Assembly (NCBI RefSeq): GCF_000282315.2
Contig: NZ_AKJN02000006.1
Location: 1,364,001-1,428,000 of the forward strand
Origin: Pseudomonas sp. GM41(2012)
GTDB lineage: Bacteria > Pseudomonadota > Gammaproteobacteria > Pseudomonadales > Pseudomonadaceae
Direction of reading: 5' to 3'
Length of the DNA: 64,000 nucleotides
Part shown: positions 54,271-56,403 of the stretch, piece by piece
How positions within the stretch are numbered: the first letter of the stretch is position 1
Layout of the letters: each line of letters opens with the position of its first letter
Program-made: the position numbers and the translations under genes
Notes under the pieces: model-generated
Databases searched by the model: none
Told to the model about the DNA's origin: nothing
What the model saw: only the letters and a program-made list of their open reading frames with translations

Positions 54271-56403
54271 TCAGTCTGCAGCCCGGGTCAGCAGCGCAAG
54301 GGTACGCTCGAAGCGGTCCAGCCCTTCCACAATGTCCACCTCGGACACAATCAAACTGGGGGCAAAACGCAGTACATCGGGGCCGGCCTGCAACAGGATC
54401 AACCCCTGCCCGGCCGCCGCATTCAGCACTTCTTTGGCTCGCCCACGCCAGCCGTCAGTGAGCACGCAACCGATGAGCAGCCCCAGTCCGCGAATTTCGT
54501 TGAACACACCGTATTGCTCGGCCATTTGGGCAAGGCGAGCCTTGAACTGTTCTGCGCGTTGTTTCACGCCATCGAGCAGGACCGGGTCGCTGACCAGGTC
54601 AAACACCGCCTCGGCCACCGCACAGCCCAGCGGATTACCGCCATAGGTGGTGCCATGGGTGCCCGGCAACAGGTGTTGCGCCAGCCCTTCGCGCGTCAAC
54701 ATCGCGCCAATCGGGAACCCGCCTCCCAGGCTCTTGGCACTGGTCAGGATGTCGGGCTCAACGCCGTAATGCTGATAAGCGAACAACTCTCCAGTGCGTC
54801 CCACGCCGGTCTGCACTTCGTCGAAGATCAACAGCGCATTGAACTGATCGCAGAGCTTGCGGGCACCTTCGAGGTAAGCGCGCTCAGCGGGCAGCACACC
54901 GCCCTCGCCCTGAATCGGCTCCAGGACCACCGCGCAGGTTCTGTCCGACATCGCGTTCTGCAGTGCATCCAGATCATTGAAAGGCACATGGCTGATCCCT
55001 TCAATTCTCGGGCCGAAGCCGTCGGAGTATTTAGGTTGGCCGCCCACGCACACGGTAAACAGTGTTCGGCCATGGAAGCTGTTCAACGCGGCGATGATTT
55101 CAAATTTGTCCGCGCCATAACGGTCATGGGCGACCCGTCGTGCGAGCTTGAATGCCGCTTCATTCGCCTCGGCTCCCGAGTTGCAGAAGAACGCGCGGTC
55201 GGCGAAGGTCGCCTCCACCAGTTTGCGCGCCAGGCGCAACGCAGGCTCGTTGGTAAATACGTTGGAGACATGCCAGAGCGTGTTCGCTTGCTCCGTCAAT
55301 GCACTAACCAGTTTCGGGTGGGCATGGCCGAGCACGTTGACGGCGATCCCACCGGAGAAATCGATCAGCTCTCGGCCATTCTGATCCCAGACCCGCGATC
55401 CTTCTCCACGGACCGGAATAAACGGCGCAGGCGCGTAGTTGGGCACCATGAAACGATCGAAATCGCCACGGTCGACCGACGCTTGCTTCTGTTGCTTGGG
55501 CAAATGCACTTCGGCCAACATGCAGCGGGCGCTGCCGCCGCCAATCAGTTCGATCGTATCGATGTTCACCGGCAAGGGCTTGGCATGTCGTTCAATGAGT
55601 TGGCGTTGCTCGGTATTCAAAGAGCACCAGGCCGTGCGCGACATCACCAGGATGGGCTCGCCCTTTTGGTTGTGAACTTCCAGCATGTTGCCCGCAAACG
55701 ACTCGAGCTGTTCCCAGGTCAGTGCCAGGATTTCCTTGCCACTGGCTCGCAGCTGAGTTTCAAGTTCGGTGCGCTCCTGAAGATTGCTGACCGCTTCCAG
55801 GCAGACCACCGCGAGCCCCGTGCCGACGCTCATCATCACGTTGGTGTGATAGATCGCCACCCCTTCGCGGTCAACAGCATTAAAGGCGCATAAACGGTAC
55901 CCGAGACTCTCGACAAACTGGCGCAGTGCATCGACATGGGTGCGAGCCGAATACCCTGCATAACAAATACGCTGAACGCGATCGAGCACCATGCTGCCGG
56001 TGCCCTCCAGGAAAAGTTCCTGCTGCTCCAGCTCGGTAAAGTCGAGCAAGTGCTCAATCGAATAGTCCTGCAGCAACGCTTCCAGAACGCCTTTGTCACG
56101 CTCCAGCCGACGGTTCTGTCCCTGCATCGGATACAGCACCAGCGTGCCATCGGCATGACTGCTCCACCAGTTGTTAGGGAAGATCGAATCGGGTGTATGG
56201 GGGGACGCGCTGTCCTGGGCCACCAGCACTTCGACCCCTTGCTCGCGTAATACCGCTACATAGCCATCAAACTCTTCAAGGGCCTGAGCTTGCGCCTGGT
56301 CCTGCGGCAATGAGCACTTCTGAAATCGATTGTTCGCGGCGGTATCAACGTTGAAGGAGAAGCGCGAAGGTCGAATCATCAACACGGTATTAGTCGTTTG
56401 CAT
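54271..56403 (-). CDS. Fusion: CtlX-like guanidino/ureido hydrolase plus ornithine-type aminotransferase
   Basis: This 710-residue chain joins two enzymes. Residues about 1-305 are an amidinotransferase-fold hydrolase of the CtlX type, with FPNNWW (Asn77/78), FLEGTGS (Glu133), His186 in AIYHTN and Cys294 in GGGSARCML. Residues about 315-705 are a class III PLP aminotransferase of the acetylornithine/ornithine group: [26 protein letters not shown] (Asp528) and Lys557 in TSAKSLGGG. The first half probably makes ornithine from citrulline or arginine; the second would turn ornithine into glutamate semialdehyde. AAAGGC precedes the ATG. Neither a stop nor a frame change lies at the joint (about residue 310). 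Confidence 0.9.

Follow-up and report, generated by a model that had tools for sequence, protein, structure and literature searches.

The window analysed here, a stretch of 64,000 nucleotides from Pseudomonas sp. GM41(2012), carries on its reverse strand a gene of 710 codons that begins with ATG and is read without interruption (Table 1). Its product joins a hydrolase (DDAH_eukar, PF19420, residues 15-300, 326 bits) to an aminotransferase (Aminotran_3, PF00202, residues 322-702, 416 bits). A preliminary description of this DNA had proposed such a hydrolase-aminotransferase frame and had named Asn77, Asn78, Glu133, His186, Cys294, Asp528 and Lys557; frame, domains and residues are all present. 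The gene thus described is a new, rare and conserved pairing of two known enzyme families, whose activities are predicted, and two enzymes made separately in most relatives are here made as one polypeptide. No published description of a CtlX-aminotransferase fusion was found in the literature searched; the passages found on the word "fusion" in PMC9007349 concern IolC-DUF2090.

The gene for a chemoreceptor starts two bases past the fusion stop (TGA CC ATG), in the arrangement given by the preliminary description. The single terminator postulated there has a counterpart in a GC-rich hairpin with a GTTTT tail just past the chemoreceptor stop, but this hairpin is missing from the list of a consensus terminator scan. 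A promoter scan of positions 52000-57000 yielded zero sigma-70-type sites.

Table 1. Features of the fusion locus (positions in the window)
Feature	Position	Strand	Basis or remark
Fusion gene CtlX-AruC, 710 aa	54271..56403	-	ORF, Pfam, NCBIfam
CtlX hydrolase domain, residues 1-302	55498..56403	-	NCBIfam, alignment, model
Joint, residues 303-308, KQQKQA	55480..55497	-	Alignment
AruC/AstC-type acylornithine transaminase domain, residues 309-710	54274..55479	-	Lys557, Asp528, Arg446, Tyr323
PctA/PscC-like dCache amino-acid chemoreceptor	52379..54268	-	Starts 2 bases past the fusion stop
GC-rich hairpin with GTTTT tail, probable terminator	about 52332..52363	-	Just past the chemoreceptor stop
Broad-specificity amino-acid racemase, Bsr type	56742..58016	+	Divergent; N-terminus signal-like by eye

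The N-terminal half belongs to the CtlX family, as had been supposed from the sequence (NF046062, 414.2 bits, cut-off 334). CtlX is widespread, and its reaction is deduced from mutant fitness. Passages of PMC9007349 call it a putative citrullinase for which the authors ask for biochemical proof, link ctlX plus ocd or aruFG to the use of citrulline and report that ctlX is important on ornithine, too. According to the same passages, FPNN and HTN are CtlX motifs, and the two positions at which guanidino enzymes bind their substrate via Asp are both Asn in CtlX. In the fusion we find FPNN at residues 75-78, HTN as His186-Thr187-Asn188, and furthermore Glu133 and Cys294. Across 38 aligned CtlX rows from Pseudomonadota, Bacteroidota and others, the FPNN residues, including Asn77 and Asn78, do not vary, nor do Glu133, His186, Asn188 and Cys294. 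Conversion of citrulline to ornithine is the predicted activity of this half, as it is for the family.

A structural model of the CtlX half (mean pLDDT 91, pTM 0.90) has the arginine-dihydrolase fold. Its closest solved relative is ArgZ/AgrE (6jv1; Z 29.1, rmsd 2.5 Å over 267 residues, 18% identity), and DDAH (Z 26.2), AstB (26.0) and arginine deiminase (23.3) were compared as well; searches of solved structures by sequence, started from the CtlX half or from its alignment, gave no relative. A fold in common does not prove a common activity. The closest fold might nevertheless suggest that this half, like ArgZ/AgrE, acts as an arginine dihydrolase and that the fusion serves the use of arginine instead of citrulline, and ArgZ too has an Asn in its catalytic site (N71, according to the title of a structure entry). 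The identity to ArgZ/AgrE, however, is only 18-20%, the FPNN and HTN motifs place Asn at both positions of the guanidino enzymes' Asp, and the fitness data in the cited passages of PMC9007349 tie ctlX to citrulline. We regard an arginine dihydrolase as unlikely.

The C-terminal half had been described as an ornithine-type aminotransferase. Instead, it is of the AruC/AstC type, exceeding the cut-offs of TIGR03246 (astC, 694.4 bits, cut-off 609.95) and PRK12381 (652.1 bits, cut-off 630) and failing that of TIGR01885 for ornithine aminotransferase (311 bits, cut-off 378.4). It shares 63-76% identity with nine AruC/AstC proteins and 34-35% with three ornithine aminotransferases. Sixty-six columns tell the two groups apart, each being invariant within either group and different between them; at these, the window genome shows the AstC-type residue in 65 and the ornithine aminotransferase residue in one. 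The fusion of a second genome, G093, has 61 columns of the AstC type, one of the other type and four of neither. We reject an identity as ornithine aminotransferase on account of the missed TIGR01885 cut-off and of these columns.

The half aligns without gaps over 391 residues to E. coli AstC (4adb), in which Tyr18, Phe138, His139, Arg141 and Lys252 correspond to Tyr323, Phe443, His444, Arg446 and Lys557 of the fusion. Passages of PMC3590144 name Tyr18, Phe138, Arg141 and Lys252 as substrate/PLP residues of AstC and describe a strong preference of the E. coli enzyme for acylated ornithine over ornithine. The five residues do not discriminate between the groups, since the three ornithine aminotransferases have them as well. 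The three enzymes also proved unsuited to the layout of a trial alignment (A4), with 17-18% identity over 809 columns. Transamination of N2-succinylornithine is the activity predicted for the C-terminal half.

This assignment bears on the two-step route of the preliminary description, in which the C-terminal half would take ornithine directly and a single polypeptide would lead from citrulline to glutamate semialdehyde/pyrroline-5-carboxylate. A pairing of CtlX with a true ornithine aminotransferase does exist: in three Bacteroidales loci (L106, L113, L114) such a gene lies directly before ctlX (TIGR01885 690, 676 and 682 bits, respectively), and aruFG are not adjacent to the fusion in the window genome. 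The family scores, the diagnostic columns, the identities and the substrate preference of AstC all argue against the direct route, and succinyltransferase genes follow ctlX-aruC/astC elsewhere, i.e. in G093, G085, G235 and on a Leclercia plasmid. Direct transamination of ornithine is the less likely of the two routes and, taken by itself, very unlikely; to correct it to the succinyl (AST/Aru) route is well-supported.

An assembly or frameshift artefact at the joint, named as a possible refutation in the preliminary description, is ruled out. A second case of the same domain order, for which that description had recommended a search, was found among 398 genomes of the genus drawn from a larger group. 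CtlX matches (E <= 1e-30) occur in 112 of these genomes, 118 in all, and CtlX is fused to an aminotransferase in two, the window genome (G000) and G093. The N- and C-terminal halves of the two fusions are 83% and 86% identical, respectively, and their joints align without a gap. A further genome, G021, has a CtlX-only gene of 317 residues (L043:1689-2642), 94% identical to the N-terminal half of the fusion. It ends in LALLTRTAD, the fusion in LALLTRAAD, and both stand directly before the same chemoreceptor gene. The terminal codons of the fusion on this CtlX gene indicate that the transaminase was lost in frame from a fused gene. A remnant of 97 residues in G232 (L045:4543-4836), also before this chemoreceptor, gives weaker support for a former fusion, since only AAD, the residues of the last three codons, and the bases around the stop match.

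Comparison of the joint with the separate proteins of G085 shows what has been joined. The separate CtlX ends with EIFLPHNEVQL and the separate AruC begins with MSVRADFDRLMVP; Ala308 of the fusion lies within about one residue of this AruC start. Compared with the housekeeping AruC of the window genome (MSVEHAAVQRADFDQVMVP), the fused half is without about five N-terminal residues. The fusion therefore consists of a nearly complete CtlX and a nearly complete AruC.

Further sets of sequences were searched. A second draw of 399 genomes of the genus (E <= 1e-155), which overlaps the first and from which a completeness filter removed G093, gave only G000 and G021. In a family-wide draw of 298 genomes (E <= 1e-100), there were 33 matches, with fused frames only in G000 and G093. 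A search of genome contigs found no fused transaminase among the 80 loci listed, a result that sets no limit on the frequency, and the viral contigs searched held no relative. An apparent fusion in G1182, an open frame of 658 codons at ctlX, was rejected, as part of it coincides with an ocd gene read in a different frame. A tree built from the transaminase domains groups the two fusions together (support 87/97) but does not fix their place among AruC. In the CtlX half, the tree does not settle how the G093 fusion, G000/G021 and the unfused G512/G490 branch relative to one another, so that a single origin of the fusion rests mainly on the common joint.

It might be argued that the fusion is a recently formed, dispensable gene which is being lost and that fusing brings no specific advantage. 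The low number of fused genomes, the internal deletions in G021 and G232 and the additional genes of the window genome are compatible with this: the full aru cluster (C, F, G, D, B, E) of the window genome includes a stand-alone aruC with 74-75% identity to the fused transaminase, and aruG follows a stand-alone ctlX with 73% identity to the fused N-terminal half. G021 no longer has the transaminase and G232 has lost most of the gene, so the fused state is dispensable in these two genomes. Between G000 and G093, however, both halves are intact, their catalytic residues are kept and dN/dS amounts to 0.074 at dS 1.25 in CtlX and to 0.079 at dS 1.04 in the transaminase, values from a simple counting estimate near saturation (dS > 1). 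In G021, the CtlX half is intact as well (dN/dS 0.097 versus the N-terminal half of G000). The low values indicate that both halves have been kept, and mere dispensability appears doubtful to us.

The genes beside ctlX suggest that CtlX produces ornithine. We searched around all 118 matches for genes on the same strand within 400 bases, using chosen reference proteins (E <= 1e-15). Downstream of ctlX lie ocd (68 cases), aruG (25) or an aruC gene or domain (four, two of them fused and two separate), and ocd lies upstream in 12 cases; a partner using ornithine or succinylornithine thus stands beside 109 of the 118. The other nine have a chemoreceptor downstream (two, G021 and G232), lrp upstream only (four), lrp downstream (one) or none of these (two). 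Most of the 118, namely the 80 that adjoin ocd and not genes of the succinyl route, count against a succinyl-route reading of the fusion, and so does the position of the fused gene in the window genome, where neither aruF nor aruG is adjacent and copies encoded elsewhere must be used. The nearest unfused relatives, in G512 and G490 (77-78% identity), have ctlX followed by aruG.

Downstream of its fusion, G093 has additional copies of aruF and aruG, paralogues of those in a separate housekeeping aruCFGDBE cluster. The aruF-type gene exceeds the cut-off of TIGR03243 (394 bits, cut-off 284) and stays below that of the alpha-subunit equivalog (423 bits, cut-off 459); the aruG-type gene exceeds that of TIGR03244 (486 bits, cut-off 391). 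G085 (L246) and G235 (L247) carry a tightly packed unfused run ctlX-aruC-aruF-aruG-aruD-aruE with overlaps of four bases between ctlX and aruC and between aruC and aruF; G085 has overlapping genes at four of its five joints. No aruB match was found in the 14 kb read. The G085 genes pass the cut-offs for CtlX, TIGR03246, TIGR03243, TIGR03244, astD and PRK05324 and miss those for PRK12381 (621 versus 630 bits), the alpha-subunit equivalog (421.5 versus 458.8) and the astE equivalog (259 versus 306). This run may be a self-contained citrulline route. Its CtlX falls in a branch apart from the clade that holds the fused CtlX, so the run illustrates an unfused state without being a proven ancestor.

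A comparable set is present on a Leclercia plasmid (L069, NZ_CP152490.1 53738-72219), in the order lrp-ocd-ctlX-astC-astA-astD-astE-hisQ-permease-hisP-binding protein-alr and again without astB. The cluster lies near an IS3 transposase gene and genes for arsenic and chromate. The same ctlX-astC neighbours occur on Klebsiella plasmids. With a query coverage of 80% or more there were 38 plasmid records; in all 15 of those listed, the two parts are annotated as separate features. These plasmid clusters resemble the fusion locus in their pathway set, in the position of ctlX beside astC and in a gene annotated as alr, but consist of separate genes where the window has a single fused one. Runs without aruB fit an entry of the pathway at ornithine. 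They are equally compatible with arginine entering as ornithine and do not separate citrulline from arginine as first substrate.

We propose that the fusion is a bifunctional enzyme of citrulline catabolism via the succinyl route, a reading to which we assign a probability of about 70%. The CtlX half would hydrolyse citrulline to ornithine and carbamate (CO2 and ammonia), AruFG as separate proteins would convert ornithine to N2-succinylornithine, and the AruC half would transfer the amino group to 2-oxoglutarate, yielding N2-succinylglutamate 5-semialdehyde, from which AruD and AruE would form glutamate and succinate. As AruFG acts between the two halves, the fused activities would be steps 1 and 3, which are not consecutive. 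The succinylarginine dihydrolase AruB would be unnecessary, because the pathway is entered at ornithine.

A second fusion points in the same direction. In G1020, a genome of the same class, CtlX (375 bits, cut-off 334) and an arginine/ornithine succinyltransferase domain share a single frame (L164:5323-7326); the latter passes TIGR03243 (355 bits, cut-off 284) and stays below the AstA equivalog (327 bits, cut-off 391). This fusion was seen in one genome; at E <= 1e-40, CtlX was found in 13 of 321 genomes of the class and 16 of 329 of the phylum. If it is real, fusion of CtlX with succinyl-route enzymes has occurred two or more times, with the succinyltransferase of step 2 in G1020 and with the transaminase of step 3 in the window. 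Both fusions and the runs without aruB suggest alike that CtlX supplies ornithine to the succinyl route. A single protein containing both activities would offer a direct handle on the CtlX reaction and suggests how these bacteria may consume citrulline.

In comparison with known systems, the N-terminal half has the full-length domain of CtlX (NF046062), its FPNN and HTN motifs, its Cys, His and Glu and its genomic link to genes using ornithine, but the CtlX proteins in the passages of PMC9007349 (from Pseudomonas and Phaeobacter) are stand-alone. The transaminase half retains the named substrate residues and the PLP lysine of AruC/AstC (TIGR03246), but has an additional N-terminal hydrolase domain, and its gene lies apart from the housekeeping aru cluster. 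The likeness to the cyanobacterial AgrE/ArgZ (6juy, 6lrf), together with a difference from it, had already been pointed out in the preliminary description and is borne out by our data. In both, an N-terminal hydrolase of the same fold is fused to an enzyme acting on ornithine or its product. In AgrE/ArgZ this is an ornithine cyclodeaminase, whereas Aminotran_3, a PLP aminotransferase domain, is alone behind the hydrolase domain of the fusion.

The fusion could be imagined as the scaffold of a citrulline metabolon that holds steps 1 and 3 together. Its transaminase core, a dimer in this enzyme class, would recruit AruFG for a local passage of ornithine and succinylornithine. In such a complex, catabolic ornithine would be kept from the arginine-synthesis enzymes that would remake citrulline, and the CtlX fusions to AruC and to the succinyltransferase would be convergent answers to a futile cycle. 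This idea is speculative and rather unlikely to hold.

The co-encoded chemoreceptor probably guides the cells toward amino acids. Its sensor is homologous over the full length to 6pxy (E 6e-111), which we take to be PscC of P. syringae, and to PctA (5ltx, E 4e-101), and from these closest relatives sensing of amino acids is likely, in agreement with the amino-acid chemoreceptor that the preliminary description had placed in one unit with the fusion. Citrulline as its ligand is a guess. The divergent racemase, closest to the broad-specificity racemase 4dyj, probably feeds D-forms into the pathway. The same divergent arrangement is found with the fusion in G000 and G093, with its shortened forms in G021 and G232, and with the nearest unfused ctlX in G512 and G490.

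Between the racemase gene and a GntR gene there is an inverted repeat of 29 bases (58032-58134, arms 58032-58060 and 58106-58134, recognized by eye), presumably similar to a Pseudomonas REP element. The region 58158-62208 encodes the GntR regulator, an amino-acid ABC ATPase, a PGA_cap protein and a weakly ornithine cyclodeaminase-like protein (61249-62208, no NCBIfam match at E <= 1e-30), and its gene order is the same in G232.
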